From Pegea sp. RAD2-039 (Eukaryota > Chordata > Thaliacea > Salpida > Salpidae): 64,000 nt of DNA. The stretch covers positions 186,001 through 250,000 of the forward strand of contig JAQGEQ010000043.1 of the NCBI GenBank assembly GCA_034620365.1. The letters run 5' to 3'. The stretch's first letter is position 1. Each line of letters opens with the position of its first letter. Below, one piece after another: positions 13,252 through 64,000 of the stretch. Under the pieces are notes generated by a model. The model saw nothing but the letters and a program-made list of their open reading frames with translations, had not been told where the DNA came from and ran no database searches. Position numbers and translations under genes: made by a program.

Positions 13252-16200
13252 ATGTGTTCTTCCTGCGTTTTTGCTGGAGTAACATGGGCGGCCATCATCT
13301 GTGAGTACCTTATAATATCTTCTGTATTTTTTTTTAATAAATTGTTTAAAGAGAGTAAAAACTTTTCATGAATAATAAAGTCAAGTTTTGACTGATAGAA
13401 TAACACTTTATAATATTTGGAATAACATTTTACACCTCAATCTATAAAGTATGTGGCATTCCTCCTGAAATAAGAAATGGATCTTATTCAGGACCTTCTA
13501 AAGCAGTTTCAGGATCAATCTACAATTATTCTTGCAATAAAGGATTTATTGCATTTGGAGAATTTAAGAACAATCTACAGGTGGAATGTTTATCAAATGG
13601 CAGTTTTTCACTAAATAGTGATCATCTTGCAGTATGTTTACCAGGTAAAGAATTTGTACAAATTTAACAAAAGCAAATCGCATCAATTAAATACAATACT
13701 ATTTCAAATTTAGATTTAAATTGAAGAGTTTTATAAATGACAAAGAAAAGATTAAACAACTAAAATTTTATCTAAGTTATATTATTTAAAAAAAAGTTTA
13801 TTTTTTAAAGAAAGTTTTCAATTTATTCAAAAAGTTCAAATGAAAAATGTTACTTTTAAAACAATGTCTTTTATATTTTGGATAATATCAACAATAGTTA
13901 ATTTATTGATTTACTAATTACCATTTAACTTTGAGTTCTAAGATCTACAGTTTTAGAAAAGCTAAAGAAATGAATTACAAATCAAAATTACAATCAATAA
14001 AAATTTCAGCTTTACACCGTTTATATTTTTTAAACATGAGATTATTGATTAAAATTAAAAATACATTTAAGATGACGATCTACACTTTTTATTGCTTATT
14101 GTATTTACTTTTATAAATTTAGTTTGTGATCGTCCAACGTCGCTTAAAAATGGAAACTTTTCAATTTCTACTGCTGTTTTTGAGTCAATGTATTTATCTG
14201 GCACAATGGTAGAATATACTTGTGATAGTGGGTATGCATTTTATCCAAAAGAAAACAGCACGCTTTCTTGCAATAGTTCAGGGGAATGGAAAGGTATAAT
14301 TGGAAACTGTTATCCAAGTAAGTTATAAATATATTGCAACAATCTGTATGACATTTATTCATTAGTTTGCAGTCCAACACCTGATCTAGATAATGGTTTT
14401 AAGAATATCACCAATCAAATCGTAATTAATGATACAGTAACACTTGAATTAGAAGTCATATACTCATGTGACTTAAGCAGCGTAATGGTTTCTGAAGATA
14501 AAAATAATTGGACTTGCTTATCTCCTGGCTTGTGGTCTTACACAGCCTTACCTAACTGCTTAAAAGGTAGTAGTTATTTTTCCTTGCAAAAAATGATAAT
14601 TAATTGTTTGTTTAAAATCAATTTCCATTAAATACTTCAAAATAAATTTGTGATTGACCTACTATTCTATTTTCTTGAAGAGTGTTCTTTATTTTAAAAT
14701 ACTTTAAATGGCAAAATTAAATAGTACTATTTTACATACGTAAGATTATTGATTAAAGTTAAAAATACATTTAAGATGACGATCTACACTTTTTATTGCT
14801 TATTGTATTAACTTTTAAAAATTTAGTTTGTGATCGTCCAACGTCGCTTAAAAATGGAAACTTTTCAATTTCTACTGCTGTTTTTGATTCAATGTATTTA
14901 TCTGGCACAATGGTAGAATATACTTGTGATAGTGGGTATACATTGTATCCAAAAGAAAACAGCACGCTTTCTTGCAATAGTTCAGGAGAATGGGAAGGTA
15001 TAATTGGAAACTGTTATCCAAGTAAGTTATAAATATATTGCCACAATATGTATAACATTTATTCCATAGTTTGCAGTCCAGCACCTGATCTAGATAATGG
15101 TTTTAAAAATATTACAAATCAAATTGTAATTAATGATACATTGACACTTGAATTAAAAGTCATATACTCATGTGACTTAAGCAGCGTAATGGTTTCTAAA
15201 GATAAAAATAATTGGACTTGCTTATCTCCTGGCTTGTGGTCTTACACAGCCTTACCTAAATGCTTAAAAGGTAGTAGTTATTTTTCCTTGCAAAAAATGA
15301 TAATTAATTGTTTGTTTAAAATCAATTTCCATTAAATACTTCAAAATAAATTTGTGATTGACCTACTATTCTATTTTCTTGAAGAGTGTTCTTTATTTTA
15401 AAATACTTTAAATGGCAAAATTAAATAGTACTATTTTACATACGTAAGATTATTGATTAAAGTTAAAAATACATTTAAGATGACGATCTACACTTTTTAT
15501 TGCTTATTGTATTAACTTTTAAAAATTTAGTTTGTGATCGTCCAACGTCGCTTAAAAATGGAAACTTTTCAATTTCTACTGCTGTTTTTGATTCAATGTA
15601 TTTATCTGGCACAATGGTAGAATATACTTGTGATAGTGGGTATACATTGTATCCAAAAGAAAACAGCACGCTTTCTTGCAATAGTTCAGGAGAATGGGAA
15701 GGTATAATTGGAAACTGTTATCCAAGTAAGTTATAAATATATTGCCACAATATGTATAACATTTATTCCATAGTTTGCAGTCCAGCACCTGATCTAGATA
15801 ATGGTTTTAAAAATATTACAAATCAAATTGTAATTAATGATACATTGACACTTGAATTAAAAGTCATATACTCATGTGACTTAAGCAGCGTAATGGTTTC
15901 TGAAGATAAAAATAATTGGACTTGCTTATCTCCTGGCTTGTGGTCTTACACAGCCTTACCTAAATGCTTAAAAGGTAGTAGTTATTTTTCCTTGCAAAAA
16001 ATGATAATTAGTTGTTTGTTTAAAATCAATTTCCATTAAATACTTCAAAATAAATTTGTGATTGACCTACTATTCTATTTTCTTGAAGAGTGTTCTTTAT
16101 TTTAAAATACTTTAAATGGCAAAATTAAATAGTACTATTTTACATACGTAAGATTATTGATTAAAGTTAAAAATACATTTAAGATGACGATCTACACTTT

Positions 16201-19200
16201 TTATTGCTTATTGTATTAACTTTTAAAAATTTAGTTTGTGATCGTCCAACGTCGCTTAAAAATGGAAACTTTTCAATTTCTACTGCTGTTTTTGATTCAA
16301 TGTATTTATCTGGCACAATGGTAGAATATACTTGTGATAGTGGGTATGCATTGTATCCAAAAGAAAACAGCACGCTTTCTTGCAATAGTTTAGGAGAATG
16401 GAAAGGGATAATTGGAAACTGTTATCCAAGTAAGTTATAAATATATTGCAACAATCTGTATGACATTTATACATTAGTTTGCAGTCCAGCACCTGATCTA
16501 GATAATGGTTTTAAGAATATCACCAATCAAATCGTAATTAATGATACATTAACACTTGAATTAGAAGTCATATACTCATGTGACTTAAGCAGCGTAATGG
16601 TTTCTGAAGATAAAAATAATTGGACTTGCTTATCTCCTGGCTTGTGGTCTTACACAGCCTTACCTAAATGCTTAAAAGGTAGTATTTATTTCTTCCTTGC
16701 AAAAAATGATAATTAATTGTTTGTTTAAAATCAATTTTTATTAAACACTTTATTTGAAATTGGTTGATGACCTACTATTTAATTTTTATGAAGAGTGTCC
16801 TTAACTTTCAACACTCCAAATGGCAAATTTAAAAAGTATCATTTTACATACGTAAGATTATTGATTAAAATTAAAAATACATTAAAGATGACCTTCTATA
16901 CTTTATATTGTTTATCGTATTTACTTTTAAAAATCTAGTTTGTGATCGTCCAACGTTGCTTAAAAATGGAAACTTTTCAATTTCTACTGCTGTTTTTGGG
17001 TCAATGTATTTATCTGGCACAATGGTAGAATATACTTGTGATAGTGGGTATGCATTGTATCCAAAAGAAAACAACACGCTTTCTTGCAATAGTTTAGGGG
17101 AATGGAAAGGTATATTTGGAAACTGTTATCCAAGTAAGTTATAACTATATTGCTACAGTATGTATAACAGTTATTCCATAGTTTGCAGTCCAGCACCTGA
17201 TCTAGATAATGGTTTTAAGAATATTACAAATCAAATCGTAATTAATGATACATTGACACTTGAATTAAAAGTCATATACTCATGTGACTTAAGCAGCGTA
17301 ATGATTTCTGAAGATAAAAATAATTGGACTTGCTTATCTCCTGGCTTGTGGTCTAACACAGCCTTACCTAAATGTTTAAAAGGTAGTAGTTATTTTTAGT
17401 ATCTATGATTAGTGATTTTTTGTATATGAACAATTTCCATTAAACATTCTAAACAATACTTTTTTGGTTAAAAATTTGCATAAAAAGATTAGGAACAATT
17501 TTCGTATAATTCATTTATATCCATTAAACACTTTAAAAATAAATTGGTTATTAAGCTACTATTCTCTTTTCTTAAAGAGTGTACTTTAATTTACAACACT
17601 CCAAATGGAAAACTTTTTCCAATATATGAGCCAGTTGTTGGTAGATATGTATCTGGAACAATTGTTGAATACGTTTGTAATGAGCTTTATCTGAAAAAAG
17701 AAGGAGATACTTATACAAAAGCCTGTCAGGAAGATGGTACTTGGAATTCTACTGCTCTTCCTCGTTGTATTCTAGGTAAGTTAGCTTGTTTGTTTTCAAG
17801 TTTTAAGTTATTCAATCATAAAATTTTCAGTAAAAGTCATTAAAATTTTAGTGAATTGTTTTTAGTTGCATCTATTTCTTTAGTAGATTAAATCTTTTGC
17901 AGAATTCTCAGATGCTATGAAATGTAATGCTTCTTTTACATTTCAACTAACGTCAACGAAGTCAAACTTTTCCGAAAGTAGAAAACTTTGTCAATTAATG
18001 GGTGGTGATTTGATTCATCAAACATTAGGATTTCATGAAGTTGGTTCAACTTATTTTAGGTAACTGTTAGTTGCATGGCACTTCTTTCAAAACTTTTTTA
18101 GTCTGACTTTCTTAGTAATAGAAATAACTAGAAAGAATTATTCGATTAACTTTATAATAAAAAGTGTTTCAGTTAGCTTTTTCACCTAAACAAATCTTTT
18201 GTAGTTTAGTACAATTATTTTTGTAATTATTTGAACTAAATTAATAGTTAAGAAAGAAAATCAAACTTGGTTCTGTGGGTAAGCTGTTTTAGCTTAAGCT
18301 ATTTGTAGCATATGTACTTAACACACATATATTTCCAAACATTAGTAATTTTATTTCAATTTAAAATTGTAACATATTTAACTATATTTTAGTGACATCA
18401 ATGAATATTCGAAATTACCAGAAAGCTCGGAGACCCAGTTCTATATTGGAATCACTGATTTGAAATATCAAGGAGACTTTAGATTTATTGATGATACAAA
18501 ATGGGATTTCAATAATTCAGATATACCTCAACTGTTAAATTGGACGAGTGGTGAGCCTAATAATAACAATGGAAATGAACGTTGCGTTGAAATCCGAGGT
18601 GTTAATACGTTGAATGACCGAAAGTGTACAAGAGAATACTTTGGGCTTTGTGAAATCAAAACAATTACTTGTGTCTCTGAAACTATTCCAACAAGTTGTG
18701 AGGCAGCACCTGATGTTAATAATTCAACTATCAGTATTGCTTATACTAATTTGGAAAACGACTTCATTAGTTCAGAAGCAAGTTTGACTTACATTTGTGA
18801 TGGTGATCTGTTGTTTGTTTCGCCTGAAAAATCAAAGTGGAACTGCAGTGAAAAAATAAACTCGTCTATCTATACAACGCCGCAATGTGTAACTAGTCAG
18901 TTGTATTTATGTACTTATATAATTAGTTTGATAAATGTTTAATTAAACTTTTCTGTAAAAATAAATATTCAATGTTTAATTAACTATAATAAAAATAAAA
19001 CAAAAATTTTTCTAGAATATTGGCAGTATTAATTCTCTCATTTATAACTGAGTATTAAAACACATTTTAAAATTGTCTGATAAATAATTTCAAATGTTAG
19101 ATTTTGTCTTTTTCCATTCTAATAATTATAAAATTAGTTAATTCTTTTTTGGGATAACATTTATAAATAGATCTATTTATAAATAGATTGTGGTCCGGCA

Positions 19201-22200
19201 CCTGATCTTGAAAATGGAAGCAAATTTATTGTCGACAGCATTATCGTAAATGATTCATTTAGCCTGGAATTGAAAGTGAATTATACATGTGACAGTGATT
19301 TTTTCCTTTTTCCACACGATTATTCACAATGGAGCTGTCTTCAGGGAGGAAAATGGTCGTACTCATTACAACCTCGCTGTTTAAATAATATGATATCAGG
19401 TAAGAATTTTGTTTTGCTTTTAGATTGATTTTTATATAAAATTTTTTAACTTTTATATGACTCAATCATAAATGTATTTTAGTATCATCTAACATTACTT
19501 CAATGAACTGTAATTTTGAAACTGAATTTTGCAACTGGATAAGTGAAGTTGAAAATGATTGGATTTTGAAAAATGGTAAAATTTTGATTGTTTAAATCCA
19601 ATATTTAGTACTTCCAAAGTCAATGGAATAAAAACTGATTATAGAAACTTATCAACTACGTGCTGCATCTGCTGGGTATGACACAGGAAGATATGCTGAG
19701 ATTGAAGTGGACAGTATATCTTACAGTTTGAGTGCTGAATCAACCGAAATAGGGTATCTTATTGTTGAAATGAAGACTGAAACAAATACTTTTACTGAAA
19801 GAATGTTTGATGTTTTCGGAAGAGCAGTAGAGGTTCAAATTATTTTCGCTCATTAAAATTATGTAAAGCTTTTTTCAACTATTTCTTTTATTGATTTGTA
19901 GCAAAGGTTTGCTTTATAATTAGATTTTTAATTAATGCTTGAAGTATAATTTCACTTTTCTTTACTAAAAGGTCGACAATATGGTTTCATTTTTGATGAA
20001 TGATGTCAGCTATGGATCTATTTTGTTGATAGCTGTTAAAGACACAAGTTTTAAATTGCATCTTTCAGCATCCAGTTTATACGTGGAACAATTTACTGCA
20101 TTAGGAGCAGGAGATACGGAAGAATGCCCACTTTTTCCTGGTAAATTTATGCGTTTTAACAAATACATTAAATAGTAGGTTTTAAGTCTTAACCCTATTT
20201 GTAACGAGTTGTATAAATTTTTAAGGTATAACGTCAACACTAATTGTTGTATTTCTAATTAGTTTTGATTATCTCTCTTAGAATTTAGATCAAGCTGGGC
20301 GATGATAACGATGAAGGTTCGGAATAAAACTGAAATACCCGACTGGTTTGTTTGCAATTATGCCGAGAATAAATCTGTTGAAATTTCTACAAATGCTTAT
20401 AAAAGTAAAAAAAAAAAGATAATATTGATATTTATCAAATTATATAATTGAATATTTGTCATTTAGATCGCTATATGCTTTTTAATGAGGTAAAATCAAG
20501 TTCAAAAATATCTTCACGACTAGCTTCAATTCAACTTTTACCACCATCCTCAGAATATTGTATTTGTATGGAATTCAAATATAAATCATTTGGCTTAAGC
20601 ATTGCAAAGTTGTCTTTTACTGCTAAAAGCATAAGCACTGGAGATGAAAAAAAAGTAAATCAAACTCAAAATACGAAAAATGATATTTAAGTGATTTTGG
20701 CAGATATGGTCAAATACAAGAGTATCAGCTGGTACTTGGTTACAAGACAAGGTTTTTTATATGAACACACGTGAAACATATCAATTAGCATTTACAGTTG
20801 ATCGCTCAGAAGAATCATCCACTAATGTTTCTGTTGATGATATTTTCTTCAGCAAAATTAATGCTGAAAACTGTGGTAATTACAAATTTACAGTTTTAAA
20901 CAATAAAACATAATCTGTTAATTTTGCTACTAAGGTGTTTCTTATGTTTTAATAATTATTAAATTTTAAATAATCATGTTTTGTTCACATACTAAAAAAA
21001 ATTGTATAAGACTTCGCTCAAAACACTTAAAGTAAATATTGTCTTGGTATACTTGAGCAACCAGCTGCTGCAAATTAATAAGCTAAAACGTCTTAGAAAA
21101 TAGTTTTATTTTTCGTTATAAACTAAAAATTATTGCAAAAATATAAAAATTGATTGAAAAATACTTGTTTTCATTTGATTATCTATAAAAAGTCTAAGTA
21201 AATATTGATTTAGTGATTAATCAGTTATAAATAAATTTTACTTTTGTCAACTAGAATGCCCTTTGCTCTATAATACTGCAAATGGAAAAATTGTTCCTCG
21301 AACAGAACTTGAAGATGGAAGATATATGTTTGGAACAATTATTGATTATGTGTGTGATGAATTTTATGTTGAAGCTGAAGGGGATGATTTTACATTAGCT
21401 TGTCAAGATGATGGTACTTGGAATTCTACTGTTGTTCCTCGTTGTGTTTTAGGTATTTTTTTAAAGAGATTTTTTCTAAAGTTAAAAAGTTTTCATAAAA
21501 GTTGTACTAATATTAGTTTGTATACATTCTTATTTGAAATATGAAACTTTTTATCAAAAAGTTTTTTGCTAATCAAACTTCTAGTTGTAAACTTTAATCA
21601 GCTTTATCAAAAATTCAGAAGCCTAACTTCTCAAACAGAATATTATAAGATATGATAAGTAAAATGTATTATCTGTTGTTTAAATCATCAAAAAACATTT
21701 AATACCTGGAATTAAACTATTTTTATTATATATTTTCAGCCAATAAGCAGTGTTAATATTTATAAAATTTAGTAGAAATTTGAACTTCTGTAATAGTAAG
21801 TACTCTTGAACCACAGCAGATTAAGATAATAAAAAATAATTCATCGATAAAATGAATAATACTTCAAAATACCTTAATCAAAAATACCCGTTTGATTAAT
21901 ATATTTTGTAAATAAAGTCGCCTATAAGATTACGCGTCAGTAATAAGAAAAGTTCACCTGCTAACTGACAAATGGTAATAAACTGTATAAAGTTGTTTAA
22001 AGCGTAAAATACTCCAAAATTCAATCTATAAAATAGTGTAAGAATATTTTTCAACTATCTATTCGATTACTCTGCTTTAATATGCAGCAAACTGCAACTA
22101 ACTTTGTTTTCAGACAATAAAAATCATTAAGTTTCAGTTTAAATTTTACAAAATAGAATTTCAAGATATACTAAAAACAGAAAGTGCAAACTTTATTATT

Positions 22201-23028
22201 AGGAAGTTTATTTCTTTTAAATTAAAGATTTTCAATTTATTAAGTGATTAGTTTTATCTAGAGGTATATGAGATTTTCTTTAAATTCTACTCAAGTTGTT
22301 TTTAGAGTAATTGAGTCTTATCATTAACAGAGTATTGGAGTGCTTGCATCACTGCAATAATTTAGCACTTTTACAGTGAATATCATCAGATTTCTAGATT
22401 TTATAAACTTTTCTTCTTCACAGAGTGGTCTGATAGCAGAAAATGTAACGTCTCATATGAGTTTTTTGCTACACCAACTAAAGACAACTTTGTGAATTCA
22501 CAAATTTATTGTCAATCAATAGGAGGAAATATAATTCATCAAACATTAGGATATACTGATGTTGGCTCAACTTATTTCGAGTTAATAAATTATTTTTATG
22601 TGCTTTCAATTTGGTATCGTTATGAATCTGTTTACTAACATTATTGTTAAGTTATCGCTTATCAAGTTATATGACTTTAAATGTTTCCTAAAGTCAGGTC
22701 AAAACTGATTTTGTTTTGATTTTTTAGTGAAATACAAACTTTTATAGACGAACAGGATGCTGAAAGGGGTACTTTTAATCCGCTAATTGGACTGACTGAC
22801 ATTGTTAACGAAGGAACATTTGCTTTTATTGACAATACTTTGTTTGATTATTATAAGCCAAAAACCTCTCGGCTTTATTCATGGTTGAGAGGAGAGCCTA
22901 ATGATTATTTCAATTCAGAAGATTGTGTTCAACTGTTTAAAAATTCAGATGTGTATACACTGAATGATATTGATTGCTCTGCACTAAATTATGCAATTTG
23001 CGAAGTCAAAAATATAACATGCTTTTAA
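13252..23028 (+). CDS. CCP/C-type lectin/MAM mosaic protein, gene 1 (1627 aa)
   Basis: The exons sum to 4884 bases, an exact frame. Leader 13252-13300 and CCP1 13450-13644; five A/B CCP pairs (see array entry); CCP-C 17578-17775; lectin 1 17903-18059 plus 18393-18895 (the latter also carries a CCP); CCP 19187-19399; MAM region 19483-19575, 19645-19832, 19972-20140, 20282-20404, 20467-20654, 20704-20875; CCP-C2 21255-21452; lectin 2 22424-22580 and 22728-23028. Approximate residues: leader 1-16, 15 CCPs between 17 and 1475, lectin 1 808-950, MAM 1099-1409, lectin 2 1476-1627. CCPs show the four cysteines and Trp; lectins keep EPN. No membrane segment is seen, so the product is probably secreted. 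Lectin and CCP families act in recognition, complement and adhesion; the role here is inferred. The leader is short for a signal peptide. AATAAA at 23109-23114. Confidence 0.9.
14123..17382 (+). repeat. Tandem CCP exon array, gene 1 (5 units of ~704 bases)
   Basis: Each unit holds exon A (195 bases) and exon B (201 bases). A exons: 14123-14317, 14827-15021, 15531-15725, 16235-16429, 16939-17133. B exons: 14366-14566, 15070-15270, 15774-15974, 16478-16678, 17182-17382. A encodes the VCDRP...EYTCDSGY...LSCNS..GEW...NCYP type; B encodes VCSPAPD...IYSCDLSS...WTCLSPGLW...CLK. Both have four Cys and the Trp. Introns inside a unit are only 48 bases; introns between units are about 260 bases. Every exon is phase 1 at both ends. 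Units 2 and 3 are nearly identical. Confidence 0.95.
14681..16838 (+). pseudogene. Four fossil exon-C fragments inside the array introns, gene 1
   Basis: At 14681-14725, 15385-15429, 16089-16133 and 16794-16838 the intron repeats the acceptor and about the first 45 bases of exon C (AGTGT...ACACTCCAAATGGCAAA), then departs from it. The real exon C stands at 17578. The fossils have no usable downstream half or donor. Confidence 0.75.
17903..18895 (+). other. C-type lectin domain 1 plus linked CCP, gene 1
   Basis: The first half (17903-18059) carries SRKLCQLMGGDLI, the start of the lectin fold. The second half (from 18393) has FRFIDDTKW, then NWTSGEPNNNNGNERC and NTLNDRKC. EPN is the mannose-type calcium-site motif; the usual WND is LND. 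A CCP (CEAAPDVNN... to ...TPQC) follows in the same exon, an unusual fusion of two domains in one exon. Confidence 0.88.
19483..20875 (+). other. MAM region, six exons, gene 1
   Basis: It opens with MNCNFETEFCNWISE and NDW, the classic MAM start, and closes with NVSVDDIFFSKINAENC, the classic MAM end. Its 311 residues are about twice one MAM domain (~160). It is best read as two MAM domains, the second with a diverged start. MAM domains mediate adhesion and oligomerisation in extracellular proteins. Confidence 0.8.
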
Positions 23029-26510: not shown

Positions 26511-26627
26511 GTATGACCATTATTACGTAACAATTAAAGTCGCATTTTATACTTAAAGTCATTCTAAATGAATTGTGTGCTTTGAATTATGCAGAGATTG
26601 ATTCTACAAAATATATGTTAGACAAGA
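26510..26627 (+). promoter_or_regulatory. Conserved family promoter block, gene 2
   Basis: Same block as before gene 1, with TTACGTAA at 26523-26530 and the TATA-like ATTTTATA downstream, at the same spacing to the ATG at 26628. Confidence 0.55.
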
Positions 26628-29600
26628 ATGTGTTCTTCCTGCGTTTTTGCTGGAGTAACATGGGCAGCCATCATTTGTGAGTACCTTGAAATGCCTATTT
26701 TCTTTTGCTTTATCAACTTTTATAAAATAAGTAAAAACTTTCAGTAAATAAAAAATAAAGTTAAGACTGATACAAAAAAACTCATTTTACACCTCAATTT
26801 ATATAGTATGTGGCATTCCTCCTGAAATAAGAAATGGATCTTATTCAGGACCTTCTAAGGCAGTCTCAGGATCAATCTACAATTATTCGTGTAATAAAGG
26901 ATTTATTGCATTTGGAGAATTTAAAAACAATCTACAGGTGGAATGTTTATCAAATGGTAGTTTTTCACTAGATAGTGATAATCTTGCAGTATGTTTACCA
27001 GGTAAAGAATTTGTACAAATTTAACAAAATTTAAACGCATAAATTAAATACAGTACTATTTAACTTTAAGGTTGAAGTTAAAGATTTTTAGAAATGACTA
27101 AAAACATATCACACAACTAAAAATTTATCTAAGTTATTTTGTTAAGAAAACGTTAATTTTCTAAATAATGTTTTTAATTATTTGAAATAGTTTAAATGAA
27201 AAATTTTACTTTCATAATGATGTGTTTTGGATTTTTGAAATCTATAATCCAAAAAATAATTAGTTTGTTAATTTAATGTAACTAGGAATGAATAGATAAT
27301 ATTACTACAATGTAACAAAAAAAATTTTTTCAGTTATTATAAGGCAATATAAAAAACATCTAGTTGAGTTACTATTAAGTTTAAAAAGTAATATTTCATA
27401 TATTTGTAAGATTATTGATTAAAACTGAAACTAAATTAATAATGAAGATTAAAACTTTTTACACTTTACATTGTTTATCTTATTTACTTTTGAAAATTCA
27501 GGCTGTGATCATCCACCGTCGCTTAAAAATGGAAATTTTTCAATTTCGACTGCTGTTTTTGAGACAATGTATTTATCTGGCACAATGGTAGAATATACTT
27601 GTGATAGTGGGTATACATTTTATCCAAAAGAAAACAGCACGCTTTCTTGCAATAGTTTAGGGGAATGGAAAGGTATAATTGGAAAATGTTATCCAAGTAA
27701 GTTATAATTATATTGATACAATATGTATAACAGTTATTGATTAGTTTGCAGTCCGGCACCTGATCTGGATAATGGTTTTAAGAATATTACAAATCAAATC
27801 GTAGTTAATGATACATTGACACTTGAATTAAAAGTCATATACTCATGTGACTTAAGCAGCGTAATGATTTCTGAAGATAAAAATAATTGGACTTGCTTAT
27901 CTCCTGGCTTGTGGTCTAACACAGCCTTACCTAAATGTTTAAAAGGTAGTAGTTATTTTTAGTATCTATGATTAGTGATTTTTTGTATATGAACAATTTC
28001 CATTAAACATTCTAAACAATACTTTTTTGGTTAAAAATTTGCATAAAAAGATTAGGAACAATTTTCGTATAATTCTTGTATATCCATTAAACACTTCAAA
28101 AATAAATTGGTTATTAAGCTACTATTCTCTTTTCTTAAAGAGTGTACTTCAATTTACAACACTCCAAATGGAAAACTTGTTCCAATATATGAGCCAGTTG
28201 TTGGTAGATATGTATCTGGAACAATTGTTGAATACGTTTGTAATGAGCTTTATCTGAAAAAAGAAGAAGATACTTATACAAAAGCCTGTCAGGAAGATGG
28301 TACTTGGAATTCTACTGCTCTTCCTCGTTGTATTCTTGGTAAGTTAGCTTGTTTGTTTTCAAGTTTTAAGTTATTCAATCATAAAATTTTCAGTAAAAGT
28401 CATTAAAATTTTAGTGAATTGTTTTTAGTTGCATCTATTTCTTTAGTAGTTTAAATCTTTTGCAGAATTCTCAGATGCTATGAAATGTAATGCTTCTTTT
28501 ACATTTCAACTTACCTCAACGAAGTCAAGCTTTACCGAAAGTAGAAAACTTTGTCAATTAATGGGTGGTGATTTGATTCATCAAACATTAGGATTTCATG
28601 AAGTTGGTTCAACTTATTTTAGGTAACTGTTAGTCTCATGGCACTTCTTTCAAAACTTTTTTAGTCTGACTTTCTTAGTAAAAAAGATAAATAGAAAGAA
28701 ATTTCTGATCAACTTTATAATAAAAAGTGTTTCAGTTAGCTTTTTCACCTAAACAAAACTTTTGTAGTTTAGTACAATTATTTTTGTAATTATTTGAACT
28801 AAATTAATAGTTAAGAAAGAAAATCAAACTTGGTTCTGTGGATAAGCTGTTTTAGCTTAAGCTATTAGTAACATATGTACTTAACAGAAATATATTTCTA
28901 AAAATTTGTAATTTTTAATTAAATTCAAAGTTGTAAAGTTTTGTTTTAGTGATATCAATGAATATTCAAAACTAGAAGAAGGCTCAGAGACCCAGTTCCA
29001 TATCGGAATTAATGATTTGAAATATCAAGGAGACTTTAGATTTATTGATGATACAAAATGGGATTACACTAATTCAGATATACCTCAACTGTTAAATTGG
29101 ACGAGTGGTGAGCCTAATAATGAGAATGGAAATGAACGTTGCGTTGAAATCCGAGGTGTTAATACGTTGAATGACCGAAAGTGTACAAGAGAATACTTTG
29201 GGCTTTGTGAAATCAAAACAATTACTTGTGTCTCTGAAACTATTCCAACAAGTTGTGAGGCAGCATCTGATGTTAATAATTCAACTGTCAGTATTGCTTA
29301 TACTAATTTGGAAAACGACTTCATTAGTTCAGAAGCAAGTTTGACTTACATTTGTGATGGTGATCTGTTGTTTGTTTCGCCTGACAAATCCAAGTGGAAC
29401 TGTAATGAAAAAATAAACTCGTCTATCTATACAACGCCGCAATGTGTAACTAGTCAGTTGTATTTATGTACTTATATAATTAGTTTGATAAATGTTTAAA
29501 TAAACTTATCTGTAAAAATAAATATTCAATGTTTAATTAACTCTAATATCAAGAAACTGAAGAATTATCTAGAATATTGGCAGTATTAAGTTTCAATAGA

Positions 29601-34229: not shown

Positions 34230-34605
34230 TTGAATTGTCAGGCTATGAAAGTCAGAGTTGAATCATTCAAATGAAAAATGTTACTCTCAAAACTATATCC
34301 TATGATATTTTTGATAATACCAACAGTTGTTAATTTGTTAATTTGACGTAATTAGCAATGAAATGATAAACTTACTACAATGTTGTAAAGAAGAATATTT
34401 ATTTGGTACTATTAGGTTTTATAGAAAAATCATTTAACTTTTGTCACTAATAAGGTTAAATATTAATCTTATACAAGTACTGTAAGAGTTTTGACTGAAA
34501 TTCAAAATATATTAAAGATTTTACTTTAGATAATTTATTTTATCTGCTTTCAATAAATTAGGCTGTGATCGTCTACTACGGCTTAAAAATTGAAAATTTA
34601 TTAGA
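34230..34605 (+). pseudogene. Relic of a further family gene: intron plus broken CCP-A exon
   Basis: Positions 34260-34560 follow the intron that separates CCP1 from the first A exon in the other genes (compare 43790-44076). At 34560 an acceptor leads into GCTGTGATCGTC, the start of exon A, but the copy decays after about 45 bases. LINE sequence begins about 110 bases further on. No leader or CCP1 exon is seen upstream, so only a scar of the 5' part remains. Confidence 0.65.
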
Positions 34606-43090: not shown

Positions 43091-43094
43091 GTTT

Positions 43095-49200: not shown

Positions 49201-52200
49201 CCAAGTAAGTTATAAATATATTGCTACAATATGTATAACAGTTATTCATTAGTTTGCAGTCCAGCACCCTATATTGAAAATGGTTTTAAAAGTATTACAA
49301 ATCAAATCGTAATTAATGATACATTAACACTTGAATTAGAAGTCATATACTCATGTGACTTAAGTAGCGTCATGGTTTCTGAAGATAAAAATAATTGGAC
49401 TTGCCTATCTCCTGGCTTGTGGTCTTACACAGCCATACCTAAATGCTTAAAAGGTAGTAGTTATTTCTTCCTTGCAAAAAATGATAATTAATTTTTGTCT
49501 CAAAACAATTTTCATTAAACACTTTACAAGAAATTGGTTAATGACCTACTATTCTATTTTTTTGAGGAGTGTTCTTTAACTTACAACACTCCAAATGGCA
49601 AATTTAAAAAGTAACATTTTCACATTTGTAAGAATATTGATTAAAATTAAAAATACATTTAAGATGACGATCTATCTTTACATTGTTTATTGTATTTACT
49701 TTTGAAAATCTAGTTTGTGATCGTCCAATGTCGCTTAAAAATGGAAACTTTTCAATTTCTTTTGCTGTTTTTGAGTCAATGTATTTATCTGGTACAATGG
49801 TAGAATATACTTGTGATAGTGGGTATACATTGTATCCAAAAGAAAACAGCACGCTTTCTTGCAATAGTTTAGGGGAATGGAGTGGTATAATTGGAAACTG
49901 TTATCCAAGTAAGTTATAATTATATTGCTGCAATATGTATAACAGTTATTCATTAGTTTGCAGTCCAGCACCTGATCTAGAAAATGGTTTTAAGAATATT
50001 ACGAATCAAATCGTAATTAATGATACATTGACACTTGAATTAGAAGTCATATACTCATGTGACTTAAGCAGCGTAATGGTTTCTGAAGATAAAAATAATT
50101 GGACTTGCCTATCTCCTGGCTTTTGGTCGTACACAGCCTTACCTGAATGCTTAAAAGGTAGTAGTTATTTCTTCCTTGCAAAAAATGATAATTAATTTTT
50201 GTGTCAAAACAATTTTCATTAAACACTTTATTTGAAATTGGTTAATGACCTACTATTTAATTTTTTTGAAGACTGTCCTTAACTTACAACACTCCAAATG
50301 GCATCTTTAAAAATTAACATTTTACATTTTAAAGAATATTGATTAAAATTACAAATACATTTAAGATGACGATCTATCTTTACATTGTTTATTGTATTTA
50401 CTTTTGAAAATTTAGTTTGTGATCGTCCACCGTCGCTTAAAAATGGAAACTTTTCAATTTCTACTGCTGTTTTCGAGACAATGTTTTTATCTGGCACAAT
50501 GGTAGAATATACTTGTGATAGTGGGTATGCATTGTATCCAAAAGAAAACAGTATGCTTTCTTGCAATAGCTCAGGAGAATGGAAAGGTATAATTGGAAAC
50601 TGTTATCCAAGTAAGTTATAAATATATTGATACAATATGTATAACAGTTATTCCTTAGTTTGCAGTCCAGCACCTTATATTGAAAATGGTTTTAAAAATA
50701 TTACAAATCAAATCACTATTAATGATACATTGACACTTGAATTAGAAGTCATATACTTATGTGACTTAAGCAGCGTAATGGTTTCTGAAGATAAAAATTA
50801 TTGGACTTGCTTATCTCCTGGCTTGTGGTCTTACACAGCCTTACCTAAATGCTTAAAAGGTAGTAGTTATTTTTTACTTGCAAAAATCGATTAGTATTTT
50901 TAAGTATAAAATCAATTTTCATTAAACACTTTACAAGAAGTTGGTTAATGACCTACTATTCTATTTTCTTGAGGAGTGTTCTTTAATTTACAACACTCCA
51001 AATGGCGTATTTAAAAAGTATCATTTTACATACGTTAGAATATTGATTAAAATTAAATATTACCCTAAGATGACAATCTATAATTTCCATTGTTTATATT
51101 ATTTACTTTTAAAAATTTAGACTGTGATCGTCCAATGTCGCTTAATAATGGAAACTTTTCAATTTCTTTTGCTGTTTTTGAGTCAATGTATTTATCTGGT
51201 ACAATGGTAGAATATACTTGTGATAGTGGGTATGCATTGTATCCAAAAGAAAACAGCACGGTTTCTTGCAATAGTTCAGGAGAATGGAAAGGTATAATTG
51301 GAAACTGTTATCCAAGTAAGTTATAAATATATTGATACAATATGTATAACAGTTATTCCTTAGTTTGCAGTGCAGCACCTTATATTGAAAATGGTTTTAA
51401 AAATATTACAAATCAAATCACTATTAATGATACATTGACACTTGAATTAGAAGTCATATACTTATGTGACTTAAGCAGCGTAATGGTTTCTGAAGATAAT
51501 AATAATTGGACTTGCTTATCTCCTGGCTTTTGGTCTTACACAGCCTTACCTAAATGTTTAAAAGGTAGTAGTTATTTCTTCTTTGCAAAAATCGATTAGT
51601 ATTTTTTGTCTCAAATCAATTTTCATTAAACACTTTATTTGAAATTGGTTAATGACCTACTATTTAAATTTCTTGAAGAGTGTTCTTTAATTTACAACAC
51701 TTCAAATGGCGTATTTAAAAAGTATCATTTTACATACGTTAGAATATTGATTAAAATTAAAAATTACTCTAAGATGACATTCTATACTTTCCATTGTTTA
51801 TATTATTTACTTTTAAAATTTTAGTCTGTGATCGTCCAATGTTGCTTAATAATGGAAACTTTTCAATTTCTACTGCTGTTTTTGAGTCAATGTATTTATC
51901 TGGCACAATGGTAGAATATACTTGTGATAGCGGGTATGCATTGTACCCAAACCAAAATAGTATGCTTTCTTGCAATAGTTCAGGAGAATGGAAAGGTATA
52001 ATTGGAAGCTGTTATCCAAGTAAGTCATAAATATATTGCTACACTATGTATAACAGTTATTCATTAGTTTGCAGTCCAGCACCTTATATTGAAAATGGTT
52101 TTAAAAATATTACAAATCAAATCACTATTAATGATACATTGACACTTGAATTAGAAGTCATATACTCATGTGACTTAAGCAGCGTAATGGTTTCTGAAGA

Positions 52201-55200
52201 TAAAAATAATTGGACTTGCCTATCTCCTGGCTTGTGGTCGTACACAGCCTTACCTGAATGCTTAAAAGGTAGTAGTTATTTCTTCCTTGCAAAAAATGGT
52301 AATTAATTTTTGTGTCAAAACAATTTTCATTAAACACTTTATTTGAAATTGGTTAATGACCTACTATTTAATTTTTTTGAAGACTGTCTTTAACTTACAA
52401 CACTCCAAATGGCATCTTTAAAAATTAACATTTTACATTTTAAAGAATATTGATTAAAATTAAAAATACATTTAAGATGACGATCTATACTTTACATTGT
52501 TTATTGTATTTACTTTTGAAAATTTAGTTTGTGATCGTCCACCGTCGCTTAAAAATGGAAACTTTTCAATTTCTACTGCTGTTTTCGAGACAATGTATTT
52601 ATCTGGCACAATGGTAGAATATACTTGTGATAGTGGGTATGCATTGTATCCAAAAGAAAACAGTATGCTTTCTTGCAATAGCTCAGGAGAATGGAAAGGT
52701 ATAATTGGAAACTGTTATCCAAGTAAGTTATAAATATATTGATACAATATGTATAACAGTTATTCCTTAGTTTGCAGTCCAGCACCTTATATTGAAAATG
52801 GTTTTAAAAATATTACAAATCAAATCACTATTAATGATACATTGACACTTGAATTAGAAGTCATATACTTATGTGACTTAAGCAGCGTAATGGTTTCTGA
52901 AGATAAAAATAATTGGACTTGCTTATCTCCTGGCTTGTGGTCTTACACAGCCTTACCTAAATGCTTAAAAGGTAGTAGTTATTTTTTACTTGCAAAAATC
53001 GATTAGTATTTTTAAGTATAAAATCAATTTTCATTAAACACTTTACAAGAAGTTGGTTAATGACCTACTATTCAATTTTCTTGAGGAGTGTTCTTTAATT
53101 TACAACACTCCAAATGGCGTATTTAAAAAGTATCATTTTACATACGTTAGAATATTGATTAAAATTAAATATTACCCTAAGATGACAATCTATAATTTCC
53201 ATTGTTTATATTATTTACTTTTAAAAATCTAGTCTGTGATCGTCCAACGTCGCTTAATAATGGAAACTTTTCAATTTCTTTTGCTGTTTTTGAGTCAATG
53301 TATTTATCTGGTACAATCGTAGAATATACTTGTAATAGTGGGTATGTAATGTACCCAAAAGAAAACAGTATGCTTTCTTGCAATAGTTCAGGAGAATGGA
53401 AAGGTATTGTTGGAAACTGTTATCCAAGTAAGTTATAAATATATTGCTACAATATGTATAACAGTAATTTTTTAGTTTGCACTACTGCACCTTATATTGA
53501 AAATGGTTTTAAGAGTATTACAAATCAAATCGCAATTAATGATACATTGACACTTGAATTAGAAGTCATATACTCATGTGACTTAAGCAGCGTAATGGTT
53601 TCGGAAGATAAAAATAAATGGACTTGCTTATCTCCTGGCTTGTGGTCTTACACAGACTTACCTATCTGCTTAAAAGGTAGTAGTTATTTCTTCTTTGCAA
53701 AAAATTAAATGATCAATTTTTGTGTTTTCATTAAACTCTGTAAAAATAAAGTGGTTATTGAGTTACTATTCTATTTTCTTAAAGAGTGTTCTTTTATTTA
53801 CAATACTCCAAATGGCAACCTTGTTCCGATATATGAGCCAGTTATTGGTAGATATGCATCTGGAACAATTATTGAATATGTATGTGATGAGTTTTATCTT
53901 AGAAAAGAAGGAGATATTTATACAAAAGCTTGTCAGGAAGATGGTACTTGGAATTCTACTGCTATTCCTCGCTGTGTTTTAGGTATTTTCTGAATATTAG
54001 TGCTTTTTTCTACAATTTAACTATTTTCAATAATTTTACTATTATTAGTTTTTATACATTCATCTTTAAATTATGAAACCTCTTATCAACAAGTTTTTTG
54101 ATAAGCAAATGTTAAGTTTTTATTTAAACCACCTACATCAAAAAATTAGAAGCCTAACTTCTATCAAGGAGGATTATAAAACTTGATAAGTAAAATGATC
54201 TATTTGTTGTTGGCAAATTATCAAAAAAACATTTAATATTTGCTATAAAACCATTTTATTATATGCTTACAGCCAATTAACGGTGCTAATATTTTCAAAA
54301 TTTAGTAGAAAGCTTTACTTCAATAATAGTAAGTACTTTTGAACCACAGCAGGTTAACATAATAGAAAGTACTACATCGATAGAATGAATAATACTTCAT
54401 AATACCTTAATCAAAAATACCCTTTTGATTAATATATTTTGTAAATAAAGTCGCCTATAAGATACTGCGTCAGTAATAAAAAAGGTTCACCTGCTAACTG
54501 ACAATTGGTAATAAGCTATATAAAGTGATTTAAAGCCTAAAATACTTTAAAATTCTTATTGGAAATTAGAGTAAGAATATTTGTCTAATATCTATTCGAT
54601 TACTCTGCTTTAATATGCAGCAAACTGCAACTAACTTTATTCTCAGACTATAAACATCATTAAATTTTACTTTAAGTTTTACAGAATAGAATTTCCAGAT
54701 ATACTAAAAACAGAAAGTTCAAACTTTATTATTAAGAAGTTTATTTCTTTTAAATTAAAGAATTTCAAAGTATTAAGTGATTACTTTTATTTAGAGGCGT
54801 TTGAGATTTTCTTTAAATTCTACTCAAGTTGTTTTTAGAGTAATTGAGCCTTATCATTAACAGAGTTATGGAGTGCTTGCATCACTGCAATAATTTAGCA
54901 CTTTTACAGTGAACATCATCAGATTTCTAGATTTTATAAACTTTTCTTCTTCACAGAGTGGTCTGATAGCAGAAAATGTAACGTCTCATATGAGTTTTTT
55001 ACTACACCAACTAAAGACACCTTTGCGAATTCACAAATTTATTGTCAATCAATAGGAGGAGATATAATTCATCAAACATTAGGATATACTGATGTTGGCT
55101 CAGCTTATTTCGAGTAAATAAATTATTTTTGATGTGCTTTCATTTTTTTATCGTAATGAATCTGTCTAGTAATATTATTTCTCGATGAGACTTTAATACT

Positions 55201-55739
55201 AATCATATTTCTTCAAGCACTAAACATATATTTATCATCGTTTTGTTAGCTTTGAGCTTTGTTTAGTAATTTTCTCTTTAATGTGATTTGTCTTTTTAAT
55301 TTGATATTTACCAGCATTAATAGAATTAATCTATGTATTTTCCATTAACTGATAGCTTTTAAGCTAAATTATCGCTTATGAAGTTATATGACTTTTTATG
55401 TTTCCTAAGGCCAGGTCAAAAATGATTTTTTTTTTTAGTGAAATACAAAATTTTATAGACGAACAGGATGCTGAAAGGGGTGCTTTTAATCCGCTAATTG
55501 GACTTGATGACATTGTTATAGAAGGAACATTTGTTTTTATTGGCTTTACTTTGTTTGATTATGAAAATGTAAACATCGTTCGGCTGTTTTCATGGATGAA
55601 CGGAGAGCCTAATAACTATATGAATTCAGAAGATTGTGTTCAACTGTATAAAAGTGAAGGTGCATATACACTGAATGATATTGATTGCTCTAAATTTAAT
55701 TATGCAATTTGCGAAGTCAAAAATATAACATGCTTTTAA
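43212..55739 (+). CDS. Long CCP-repeat C-type lectin, gene 3 (2147 aa, no MAM)
   Basis: Leader 43212-43260, CCP1 43392-43586, fourteen A/B CCP pairs (see array entry), one CCP-C at 53785-53982, and one C-type lectin at 54957-55113 plus 55439-55739. The exons sum to 6444 bases, an exact frame. About 30 CCPs occupy residues 17-1995, and the lectin is at about 1996-2147. Lectin 1, its CCP, the following CCP and the whole MAM region of genes 1 and 2 are absent. The single CCP-C starts like C1 and ends like C2. The lectin keeps EPN (GEPNNY) and has LND instead of WND. No membrane segment is seen. A long CCP stalk with a terminal lectin suggests an extended secreted recognition or adhesion molecule; function is inferred. 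Transcripts were not available to confirm that all 28 array exons are used. Confidence 0.88.
47205..49973 (+). repeat. Higher-order duplication of a two-unit block in gene 3
   Basis: The stretch from about 47205 to 48563 repeats almost exactly at 48615-49973 (shift 1410 bases, two units). The match covers introns as well as exons. I saw only about two differences, near 48109/49519 and 48122/49532. The identity fades at both ends inside B exons. Confidence 0.88.
50200..53232 (+). repeat. Higher-order duplication of a three-unit block in gene 3
   Basis: Units 10 and 13 (A starts 50416 and 52528) match closely at a shift of about 2112 bases, including introns (compare 50880-51090 with 52991-53202). 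Unit 11 versus 14 is more diverged inside exon A. Confidence 0.75.
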
Positions 55740-59500: not shown

Positions 59501-59516
59501 TAAATATACCAAGAGT

Positions 59517-59635
59517 TTGTATGACCATTATTACGTAACAATTAAAGTTGCATTTTATACTTGAAGTCATTCTAAATGAATTGTGTGCTTTGATATATGC
59601 AGAGATTGATTCTACAAAATATATGTTAGACAAGA
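59517..59635 (+). promoter_or_regulatory. Conserved family promoter block, gene 4
   Basis: TTACGTAA at 59531-59538 with the TATA-like run downstream; spacing to the ATG at 59636 is as in genes 1-3. Confidence 0.55.
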
Positions 59636-62600
59636 ATGTGTTCTTCCTGCGTTTTTGCTGGAGTAACATGGGCAGCCATCATTTGTGAGTACCTTAAAAT
59701 ACCTATTTTCTTTTGCTTTATCAACTTTTATAAAATAAGTAAAAACTTTTAGTAAATAAAAAATAAAGTTAAGACTGATACAAAAAAACTCATTTTACAC
59801 CTCAATTTATATAGTATGTGGCATTCCTCCTGAAATAAGAAATGGATCATATTCAGGACCTTCTAAGGCAGTCTCAGGATCAATCTACAATTATTCATGT
59901 AACAAAGGATTTATTGCATTTGGAGAATTTAAAAACAATCTACAGGTGGAATGTTTATCAAATGGCAGTTTTTCACTAGATAGTGATCATCTTGCAGTAT
60001 GTTTACCAAGTAAAGAATTTGTACAAATTTAACAAAATTTAAACGCATAAATTAAATAAAGTACTATTTAACTTTAAGGTTGAAGTTAAAGATTTTTAGA
60101 AATGACTAAAAACATATAACACAACTAAAAATTTATCTAAGTTATTTTGTTAAGAAAACGTTTATTTTCTAAATAATGTTTTCAATTATTTGAAATAGTT
60201 TAAATGAAAAATTTTACTTTCATAATGATGTGTTTTGGATTTTTGAAATCTATAATCCAAAAAATAATTAGTTTGTTAATTTAATGTAACTAGGAATGAA
60301 TAGATAATATTACTACAATGTAACAAAAAAAAATTTTTCAGTTATTATAAGGCAAGATAAAAAACATCTAGTTGAGTTACTATTAAGTTTAAAAAGTAAT
60401 ATTTCATATATTTATAAGATTATTAATTAAAACTGAAACTAAATTAATAATGAAGATTAAAACTTTTTACACTGTACATTGTTTATCGTAATTACTTTTG
60501 AAAATTCAGTCTGTGATCATCCACCGTCGCTTAAAAATGGAAACTTTTCAATTTCTACTGCTGTTTTTGATTCAATGTATTTATCTGGCACAATGGTAGA
60601 ATATACTTGTGATAGTGGGTATACATTGTATCCAAAAGAAAACAGCACGCTTTCTTGCAATAGTTCAGGAGAATGGGAAGGTATAGTTGGAAACTGTTAT
60701 CCAAGTAAGTTATAAATATATTGCTACAATATGTATAACATTTATTCCATAGTTTGCAGTCCAGCACCTGATCTAGATAATGGATTTAAAAATATTACAA
60801 ATCAAATTGTAATTAATGATACATTGACACTTGAATTAGAAGTCATATACTCATGTGACTTAAGCAGCGTAATGGTTTCTGAAGATAAAAATTATTGGAC
60901 TTGCTTATCTCCTGGCTTGTGGTCTTACACAGCCTCACCTAAATGCTTGAAAGGTAGTAGTTATTTCTTCCTTGTAAAAGTCGATTAATATTTTTTTGTT
61001 TAAAATTAATTTTCATTAAGAACTTCAAAAATAAATTAGTGATTGACCTACTATTCTATTTTCTTGAAGAGTGTTCTTTATTTTAAAATACTTTAAATGG
61101 CAAAATTAAATAGTACTATTTTACATACGTAAGATTATTGATTAAAGTTAAAAATACATTTAAGATGACGATCTACACTTTTTATTGCTTATTGTATTAA
61201 CTTTTAAAAATTTAGTTTGTGATCGTCCAACGTCGCTTAAAAATGGAAACTTTTCAATTTCTACTGCTGTTTTTGATTCAATGTATTTATCTGGCACAAT
61301 GGTAGAATATACTTGTGATAGTGGGTATGCATTGTATCCAAAAGAAAACAGCACGCTTTCTTGCAATAGTTTAGGAGAATGGAAAGGGATAATTGGAAAC
61401 TGTTATCCAAGTAAGTTATAAATATATTGCAACAATCTGTATGACATTTATACATTAGTTTGCAGTCCAGCACCTGATCTAGATAATGGTTTTAAAAATA
61501 TTACAAATCAAATTGTAATTAATGATACATTGACACTTGAATTAGAAGTCATATACTCATGTGACTTAAGCAGCGTAATGGTTTCTGAAGATAAAAATAA
61601 TTGGACTTGCTTATCTCCTGGCTTGTGGTCTTACACAGCCTCACCTAAATGCTTGAAAGGTAGTAGTTATTTCTTCCTTGTAAAAGTCGAATAATATTTT
61701 TTTGTTTAAAATTAATTTTCATTAAGAACTTCAAAAATAAATTAGTGATTGACCTACTATTCTATTTTCTTGAAGAGTGTTCTTTATTTTAAAAAACTTT
61801 AAATGGCAAAATTAAATAGTACTATTTTACATACGTAAGATTATTGATTAAAATTAAAAATACATTTAAGATGACGATCTACACTTTTTATTGCTTATTG
61901 TATTAACTTTTAAAAATTTAGTTTGTGATCGTCCACCGTCGCTTAAAAATGGAAACTTTTCAATTTCTACTGCTGTTTTTGGGTCAATGTATTTATCTGG
62001 CACAATGGTAGAATATACTTGTGATAGTGGGTATGCAATGTATCCAAAAGAAAACAGCACGCTTTCTTGCAATAGTTCAGGGGAATGGAAAGGTATAATT
62101 GGAAACTGTTATCCAAGTAAGTTATAAATATATTGCTACAATATGTATAACAGTTATTCCTTAGTTTGCAGTCCAGCACCTGATCTAGATAATGGTTTTA
62201 AGAATATTACAAATCAAATCGTAATTAATGATACATTGACACTTGAATTAAAAGTCATATACTCATGTGACTTAAGCAGCGTGATGATTTCTGAAGATAA
62301 AAATAATTGGACTTGCTTATCTCCTGGCTTGTGGTCTTACACAGCCTCACCTAAATGCTTGAAAGGTAGTAGTTATTTCTTCCTTGTAAAAGTCGATTAA
62401 TAATTTTTTGTTTAAAATTAAATTTCATTAAGAACTTCAAAAATAAATTAGTGATTGACCTACTATTCTATTTTCTTGAAGAGTGTTCTTTAACTTGCAA
62501 CACTCCAAATAGCAAATTTAAAAAGTAACATTTTACATATGTTAGAATATTGATTAAAATTAAAAATACATTTAATATGACAATTACCTTTTACATTGTT

Positions 62601-64000
62601 TATCTTATTTACTTTTGAAAATTTAGTTTGTGATCGTCCAACGTCGCTTAAAAATGGAAACTTTTCAATTTCTACTGCTGTTTTTGGGTCAATGTATTTA
62701 TCTGGCACAATGGTAGAATATACTTGTGATAGTGGGTATGCATTGTATCCAAAAGAAAACAGCACGCTTTCTTGCAATAGTTTAGGGGAATGGAAAGGTA
62801 TTGTTGGAAACTGTTATCCAAGTAAGTTATAAATATATTGCTACAATATGTATAACATTTATTCCATAGTTTGCAGTCCAGCACCTGATCTAGATAATGG
62901 TTTTAAAAATATTACAAATCAAATTGTAATTAATGATACATTGACACTTGAATTAGAAGTCATATACTCATGTGACTTAAGCAGCGTAATGGTTTCTGAA
63001 GATAAAAATAATTGGACTTGCTTATCTCCTGGCTTGTGGTCTTACACAGCCTCACCTAAATGCTTGAAAGGTAGTAGTTATTTCTTCCTTGTAAAAGTCG
63101 AATAATATTTTTTTGTTTAAAATTAATTTTCATTAAGAACTTCAAAAATAAATTAGTGATTGACCTACTATTCTATTTTCTTGAAGAGTGTTCTTTATTT
63201 TAAAATACTTTAAATGGCAAAATTAAATAGTACTATTTTACATACGTAAGATTATTGATTAAAATTAAAAATACATTTAAGATGACGATCTACACTTTTT
63301 ATTGCTTATTGTATTAACTTTTAAAAATTTAGTTTGTGATCGTCCACCGTCGCTTAAAAATGGAAACTTTTCAATTTCTACTGCTGTTTTTGGGTCAATG
63401 TATTTATCTGGCACAATGGTAGAATATACTTGTGATAGTGGGTATGCAATGTATCCAAAAGAAAACAGCACGCTTTCTTGCAATAGTTCAGGGGAATGGA
63501 AAGGTATAATTGGAAACTGTTATCCAAGTAAGTTATAAATATATTGCTACAATATGTATAACAGTTATTCCTTAGTTTGCAGTCCAGCACCTGATCTAGA
63601 TAATGGTTTTAAGAATATTACAAATCAAATCGTAATTAATGATACATTGACACTTGAATTAAAAGTCATATACTCATGTGACTTAAGCAGCGTGATGATT
63701 TCTGAAGATAAAAATAATTGGACTTGCTTATCTCCTGGCTTGTGGTCTTACACAGCCTCACCTAAATGCTTGAAAGGTAGTAGTTATTTCTTCCTTGTAA
63801 AAGTCGATTAATAATTTTTTGTTTAAAATTAAATTTCATTAAGAACTTCAAAAATAAATTAGTGATTGACCTACTATTCTATTTTCTTGAAGAGTGTTCT
63901 TTAACTTGCAACACTCCAAATAGCAAATTTAAAAAGTAACATTTTACATACGTTAGAATATTGATTAAAATTAAAAATACATTTAATATGACAATTACAC
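59636..64000 (+). CDS. CCP-repeat mosaic protein, gene 4 (5' part only, runs off the window)
   Basis: Leader 59636-59684, CCP1 59815-60009, then A/B pairs: 60510-60704 and 60753-60953; 61216-61410 and 61459-61659; 61922-62116 and 62165-62365; 62627-62821 and 62870-63070; 63333-63527 and 63576-63776. All are open and phase 1. The CCP1 donor is A/GTAAAG where the other genes have G/GTAAAG, which keeps the phase. A fossil exon-C start at 63893 shows that another repeat unit probably follows beyond the edge. Whether this copy ends like gene 2 (lectin 1, MAM, lectin 2) or like gene 3 cannot be seen. Its 5' flank and CCP1 match gene 2 best, while its second repeat unit matches gene 1. Confidence 0.87.
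60510..63776 (+). repeat. Tandem CCP exon array, gene 4 (at least 5 units)
   Basis: Same A+B unit as in the other genes. Units 3 and 5 (about 61740-62400 and 63151-63811) are nearly identical at a shift of 1411 bases, which marks a recent two-unit duplication. The array probably continues past 64000. Confidence 0.93.

Follow-up and report, generated by a model that had tools for sequence, protein, structure and literature searches.

A Tandem Family of Putative Secreted CCP and C-Type Lectin Genes with an ILEI-Type Domain inside MAM in the Salp Pegea

The window analyzed here, a 64,000-base stretch of the genome of the salp Pegea sp. (bases 186001–250000 of contig C30; the assembly comprises 105.7 Mb in 387 contigs), carries a tandem gene family that combines CCP (Sushi) domains, C-type lectins (CTL), and a MAM domain. 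These genes may encode secreted, multivalent glycan-binding proteins in which a homogenized CCP stalk of variable length bears diversifying tips, the reading that we favor, although on the genomic sequence of this single assembly we hold it at about even odds. It draws on the domain content of the rebuilt genes, which appears to include an ILEI-type domain nested in MAM, on the near-identity of units within the CCP arrays, and on the uneven distribution of amino acid changes along the genes.

Gene Models and Domain Content

Gene models were rebuilt exon by exon with GT-AG splicing, and 50 kb past the window were added, which completes g4. The features are listed below in window numbering, all on the plus strand.

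g1, 13252..23028 (+): leader, CCP1, five A-B pairs, C, CTL1, CCPd, CCPe, MAM(N), putative ILEI, MAM(C), CCPf, and CTL2; 25 exons, 1627 residues, intact
g1 A/B CCP array, 14123..17382 (+): five pairs with a period of ~704 bp, all exons phase 1
g1 CTL1, 17903..18895 (+): two exons, the second of which also holds CCPd
g1 putative ILEI (FAM3-type) region, 19645..20404 (+): exons 18–20, between the N-terminal MAM motif (19483–19575) and the remaining MAM (to 20875)
g1 CTL2, terminal C-type lectin, 22424..23028 (+): CTL2a 22424–22580, CTL2b 22728–23028
g2, 26628..33645 (+): domain order as in g1, with one A/B pair (27502–27945); 17 exons, 1097 residues, intact
g3, 43212..55739 (+): leader, CCP1, 14 A-B pairs, C, and CTL2; 33 exons, 2147 residues
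g3 A/B array, 44077..53676 (+): 14 pairs; units 6 and 8 are 99.7% and units 10 and 13 are 99.1% identical over 704 bp
g3 junction CCP exon, 53785..53982 (+): putative recombination site
g4, 59636..64000 within the window (+): leader, CCP1, and five of six A/B pairs; CTL1, ILEI, MAM, and CTL2 lie beyond, to 70359

Genes g1–g3 are single open frames without any non-canonical splice site, and their lengths are exactly the 1627, 1097, and 2147 residues given in a preliminary description of this locus. The 5, 1, and 14 A/B units counted there agree with ours, and the fourth gene, credited with five or more, has six pairs, the sixth lying outside the window at 64038–64481 (g4 is open for 1755 residues). 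Leader, CCP1, and repeat unit are common to the paralogs, as had been described, and the rapid change also proposed is borne out as well. The description of a tandem cluster of four paralogs is correct as to the adjacency of g1–g4, but at least seven family copies lie on the contig, g4 being followed by g5 and g6 in tandem (one pair each) and by an inverted g7 (C30:433363-439847; open, 1030 residues, without CCPe and with one GC donor). Open spliced frames with canonical sites throughout are found in five of the seven copies (g1, g2, g3, g4, and g6). In g2, g4, and g6, the CCPe donor of the g1 type would lead to an in-frame stop; their models take a GTATGA donor in its place, which keeps the frame and lies 12 bases farther upstream (after position 29983 in g2). 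Copy g5 is probably a pseudogene: its frame is interrupted by a stop at codon 998, it contains a GC donor, a CCPe donor that could be used in the expected phase is lacking, and a CCP cysteine is changed to tyrosine. More distant relatives are found on contigs C258, C48, C42, C262, C113, and C38, where A-like and B-like CCPs often alternate.

The domain searches proposed in the preliminary description all gave matches on the whole spliced g2 (Pfam Sushi, 6.7e-33; Lectin_C, 1.6e-20, with two Lectin_C domains; MAM, 6.1e-16). The CCP, C-type lectin, and MAM architecture set out there thus holds for the domains it named, but the ILEI domain had been missed, and g3 lacks CTL1, ILEI, and MAM. Scanned as single pieces, CCP1, A, C, and CCPe match Sushi; B and CCPd alone fell below a Sushi match and are named CCPs from their position and cysteines. 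Both lectins of g1 score above the Lectin_C cut-off (CTL1, 7.1e-14; CTL2, 1.5e-09). EPN and ND are the calcium/sugar motifs of the mannose-type C-type lectin carbohydrate-recognition domain; read from the translations, EPN and LND are present in CTL1 of six of six copies, and in CTL2 each is present in six of seven (g7 has ELN, g5 has LSD). Both motifs are retained in both lectins of the intact genes, and these proteins may bind sugars. In a PDB search, the best matches of g2 are to decay-accelerating factor (8.8e-15).

The products are probably secreted, since they have a hydrophobic leader and no anchor was seen in g1 or g3, in which no 19-mer with hydropathy above 1.6 was found beyond the leader. 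N-glycosylation sequons are numerous (51 in g1, 29 in g2, 70 in g3, 60 in g4, and 29 in g6, the g4 and g6 figures being counts made before correction of the CCPe donor). Among the open-licence papers listed for these domains in combination, no title or abstract describes the domain order of these genes.

An ILEI-Type Domain Nested in MAM

Part of the stretch initially read as MAM appears to be an ILEI/FAM3-type domain (PF15711; curated cut-off, 27 bits) inserted into a MAM domain. All five bordered segments (g1, g2, g4, g5, and g7) score above the cut-off, at 29.9–38.0 bits (30.6 bits in the 311-residue g1 segment), and a 150-residue piece with borders that were too tight scored 21.3 bits, below it. 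The N-terminal MAM motif sits one exon ahead of ILEI, and a full-length MAM match was obtained only when the domain was read across the insertion: with the N-terminal motif joined and ILEI omitted, the score is 74.4 bits (profile 1–153), against 56.6 bits (profile 36–153) for the C-terminal piece alone and 65.1 bits (profile 20–153) for the uncut 311-residue segment. When MAM is joined one exon border farther on, the scores are 59.4 versus 53.7, which shows that this border is not the exact end of the insert. A label of "two MAM domains" was dropped after piecewise Pfam scans.

The same MAM(N)-ILEI-MAM(C) order is seen in a distant paralog on contig C258, whose exon joins are approximate (ILEI, 33.4 bits; MAM, 49.1 bits over 1–157 with the N-terminal part and 38 bits over 69–157 without it). 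The cluster at G000:C258:1520361-1547445 has A/B-type CCPs and ILEI inside MAM, its A exons are ~49–66% identical to the C30 unit, and it is likely an older branch of the family. A genome-wide ILEI search returned six matches, three of them weak (20.4–22.2 bits) in the C258 cluster, two adjoining MAM matches; it missed the C30 copies, because the domain there is split over three exons, and is uninformative on how common ILEI-in-MAM is.

In POMGnT1, GlcNAc is contacted by Arg129, Asp179, and Arg207. The presumed Asp and Arg counterparts are invariant in the six aligned copies, and the position of Arg129 is occupied by I or L.

Growth of the CCP Array and Mosaic Genes

In self-BLAST, a unit of ~704 bp recurs, introns included, at ~85–96% identity, far above chance. 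Over 704 bp and 29 units (406 pairs), the closest are g4 units 3 and 5 (100%), g1 units 2 and 3 (99.7%), g3 units 6 and 8 (99.7%), and g3 units 10 and 13 (99.1%), followed by a pair at 95.9%; mean unit identity between genes ranges from 78 to 94%. Near-identity that extends to the introns points to recent changes in copy number, and array length changes through recent unit duplication, in the pattern that unequal exchange or conversion leaves. All exon borders of the g1 array are phase 1, and because each CCP is one phase-1/phase-1 exon, gain or loss of a pair keeps the frame; unequal exchange would add or remove whole CCP pairs.

Gene g3 lacks CTL1, CCPd, CCPe, ILEI, MAM, and CCPf. Its junction exon is C-like up to the 3′ end and the next intron is CCPf-like, which suggests that the stretch from CTL1 to CCPf was lost by recombination between two CCP exons; as a result of such a loss, its 14 pairs run directly into the terminal lectin. 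The nearest paralog also changes along the length of the genes. The g4–g6 difference is 0.303 in the 5′ flank and 0.003 and 0.006 in the introns flanking CTL2a, and that between g1 and g3 is 0.134 in CTL2b, 0.056 in bases 1–200 after the gene, and 0.020 in bases 201–400.

Relics of the family also lie in the window, both on the plus strand:

Orphan CTL2b exon, 9324..9617 (+): a pseudogene relic that carries an in-frame stop and lies upstream of g1
Decayed family relic, 34266..34599 (+): 68.5% identical to 27191–27539, a stretch that begins ahead of the g2 A exon and runs into it

Stray copies of the CCP1 exon, at C30:432871-433062 (−) beside g7 and, in part, at window coordinates 72186–72254 between g4 and g5, appear to be remains of additional copies.

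Distribution of Amino Acid Changes

Amino acid change is concentrated not in the CCPs or CTL1 but in two exons, the one that opens the ILEI region (MAM1b) and the last lectin exon (CTL2b). Pooled pairwise per exon or domain across copies, dN/dS is 2.80 in MAM1b and 1.03 in CTL2b (dN, 0.158). The CCP sequences are constrained (CCP1 0.12, A 0.62, and B 0.30), and values of 0.53, 0.82, 0.42, 0.38, 0.45, 0.45, and 0.65 were obtained for C, CCPe, CCPf, CTL1a, CTL1b with CCPd, MAM1a, and MAM1c, respectively. Exons with few changes gave 1.21 (MAM2a), 1.41 (MAM2b), and 2.64 (CTL2a), and MAM2c has no silent change. The ratio of amino acid to silent changes in MAM1b and CTL2b together, 108:24, differs from the 52:37 of CCP1, C, CTL1, CCPe, and CCPf (g3 omitted from C; P 2.0e-4) and from the 78:48 of A and B (P 4.8e-4), MAM1a, MAM1c, MAM2, and CTL2a being in neither set; these P values, which stay below 0.001 after removal of g5 or of g5 and g7, are descriptive because both exons were selected after the dN/dS results.

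Nonsynonymous divergence in MAM1b (0.102) exceeds that of the flanking introns (0.070 and 0.055), and dN in CTL2b exceeds the value for its upstream intron (0.108). Comparison of site models M2a and M1a gave P values of 3.4e-4 for CTL2, 1.6e-8 for the MAM1 segment, and 0.0017 for CTL1 with CCPd, the M0 omega of the latter being 0.35. Three of the five flagged CTL2 sites immediately precede EPN or LND, and of the five flagged MAM1 sites that precede the Pfam ILEI core, three adjoin, by our judgment of their placement, a position at which POMGnT1 contacts sugar. Positive selection in these exons is suggested by these results, not proven. Because amino acid change is highest in one ILEI-region exon and the terminal lectin, the variable recognition envisaged in the preliminary description, if real, is more likely to reside there than in the CCPs.

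Interpretation and Alternative Explanations

As putative multivalent glycan-binding proteins, the products would consist of a leader, a stalk of CCP A/B pairs and, behind it, CTL1, ILEI lodged in MAM, and the terminal CTL2. The homogenized, constrained stalk would set reach and valency, and ligand specificity would be set by the fastest-changing exons, the first of the ILEI region and CTL2b. Such proteins might recognize microbes, allogeneic cells, or gametes, or they might serve in surface adhesion, so that immune, allorecognition, or adhesive roles may be envisaged. A more elaborate proposal, that of a recognition locus with two engines of variation, namely in-frame exchange of CCP pairs for stalk length and diversification or conversion of the MAM-nested ILEI-type region and CTL2 for specificity, seems to us unlikely; if true, individuals would differ in both length and tip. 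Should the family be expressed and variable between individuals, it would offer a directly testable candidate for antibody-free recognition in an invertebrate closely related to vertebrates, in which reach would be varied in one way and specificity in another. With ILEI nested in MAM, a little-understood fold known from the POMGnT1 stem and from FAM3 proteins would also extend to a lectin family that changes fast.

Several results weigh against diversifying glycan-binding proteins. The leader is, in our judgment, short and atypical, without a textbook cleavage site. The whole-g2 Pfam scan returned no ILEI at E 0.01, the PDB search matched the POMGnT1 stem weakly (E 0.75), and just two of the three GlcNAc-contact residues have counterparts. 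With regard to diversification, MAM1b and CTL2b were chosen with the dN/dS results already known, the second ILEI exon, MAM1c, has a dN/dS of 0.65, and five of the six flagged MAM1-segment sites lie just ahead of the Pfam ILEI core, outside it. The M0 omega is indistinguishable from 1 in CTL2 (0.97, P 0.91) and MAM1 (1.02, P 0.95), and the dN/dS near 1 of CTL2b could be explained by relaxed constraint. Site tests favor a class above 1, weakly, in CTL1 with CCPd as well (P 0.0017); such tests can be misled by conversion or recombination, and the broken g5 was included. Finally, the tunicate CCP protein vCRL1 of Ciona was found not to be responsible for self-sterility (self/non-self discrimination at fertilization) and likely has a role in the blood system (PMC9265791).

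Ordinary birth-and-death evolution is a serious rival, even if we lean toward doubting it: differences in unit number and amino acids would then be nearly neutral side effects of unequal crossing over and gene conversion in a partly decaying cluster. The broken g5, the lack of CCPe and the GC donor in g7, and the relics at 9324–9617 and 34266–34599 all fit this scenario, as do the CTL2b dN/dS of ~1, the M0 omega values not different from 1 in CTL2 and MAM1, and the recent homogenization of the 3′ ends of g4 and g6 (0.003 and 0.006 in the introns). It accounts less readily for five copies that have kept long open frames and all splice sites, for the constraint on CCP1, A, B, and CTL1, and for a MAM1b dN of 0.102 next to introns at 0.070 and 0.055. 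A structural or adhesive matrix family (of tunic, egg coat, or larval glue), in which many-CCP rods would be joined through their lectin ends and length would be tolerated drift with no recognition involved, appears rather improbable to us; an excess of amino acid change in MAM1b and CTL2b, next to CCPs under constraint, would be unexpected in a pure scaffold, although gamete-coat proteins can show such a pattern, and the absence of a membrane anchor in g1 and g3, the two lectins, the many N-glycosylation sequons, and the fact that g3 remains open without CTL1, ILEI, and MAM are in agreement with it.

We consider it very unlikely that the locus is an assembly artefact, with units miscounted or haplotypes left uncollapsed and arranged in tandem. 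Assemblers err where units reach or approach 100% identity, as do g3 units 6 and 8, g4 units 3 and 5, and g1 units 2 and 3, and exact unit counts may therefore be off. On the other hand, structure varies among the copies (g3 has 14 pairs but lacks CTL1, and g7 lacks CCPe), as do the flanks (0.020–0.514 pairwise over 5′ and 3′ stretches), and contig C30 holds every CTL1 match at 93–100% identity, six of 42 genome-wide, the best match after these being at 56%. Haplotig duplication was judged unlikely, the copies being unlike in structure and flanks. The likelihoods attached to all these explanations overlap and are not intended to add to one.

Comparison with Known Systems

Selectins have the order CTL-EGF-CCP and a membrane anchor, whereas here the CCPs precede the lectins and no EGF family was found in the whole-g2 Pfam scan at E 0.01. 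Length variants of the complement receptor CR1 arise by unequal exchange, and CR1 has no lectin, MAM, or ILEI domain. CR1 is a membrane receptor of 30 short consensus repeats (SCRs), whose four long homologous repeats derive from a seven-SCR unit, and it thus resembles the present family in having a long CCP array grown by duplication of a multi-CCP unit (PMC6883348). It differs in that the unit here is a CCP pair and that no membrane anchor was seen in g1 or g3.

In abalone VERL, repeats 3–22 are homogenized by concerted evolution and positive selection is limited to repeats 1–2 (PMC9265791). A homogenized repeat rod with selection confined to certain modules is a likeness of design, not of kinship, as VERL repeats are of the ZP-N type. 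The Pegea family would thus resemble VERL in evolutionary pattern and CR1 in array growth, and appears to belong to neither. Among tunicates, the fast-changing vCRL1 is a precedent for a sushi protein that varies between individuals, being highly polymorphic among them (PMC9265791); lectin, MAM, and ILEI go unmentioned in the passages on vCRL1 considered here. Both FAM3C and the stem of POMGnT1 are sugar-binding, and ILEI-type domains lie between the membrane anchor and the catalytic domain in POMGnT1 and, as a pair, at the N terminus of FAMP-1 (PMC9802357). The putative ILEI domain described here differs in lying inside the MAM of a CCP-lectin protein and in having I or L at the third contact position.

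Other Observations in the Window and Genome

Between the genes, reverse transcriptase stretches at 37679–38428 (+; RVT_1, 4.7e-29) and 24450–24992 (−; RVT_1, 1.5e-08) are probably LINE-type elements. Elsewhere in the assembly, a very dense run of MAM matches extends over ~62 kb at G000:C262:757555-819966 on the minus strand (among the 150 of 188 candidates scored), and long runs of Sushi exons at G000:C42:423187-446503 and C249:677997-691088 (among 150 of 638 candidates scored) probably represent large CCP genes that belong to other families. GH6 is a tunicate marker among animals; one GH6 (cellulase-type) match was found at locus L044, around G000:C14:74494-74718, at 27.5 bits against a cut-off of 27, in an apparently intron-split gene, and it rises to 29.4 bits when two open stretches are scanned jointly. 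Among 18 homeodomain matches, 12 were examined, and these include two on one contig that we take to be posterior-type Hox and, on other contigs, presumably anterior-type ones. The homeodomains and the GH6 match are in keeping with a tunicate, and from the homeodomain set we judged other animals with small, AT-rich genomes (rotifer, hydrozoan, or placozoan) to fit less well. Upstream of the cluster, exons of a DEAD-box helicase gene occupy 6652–7389.

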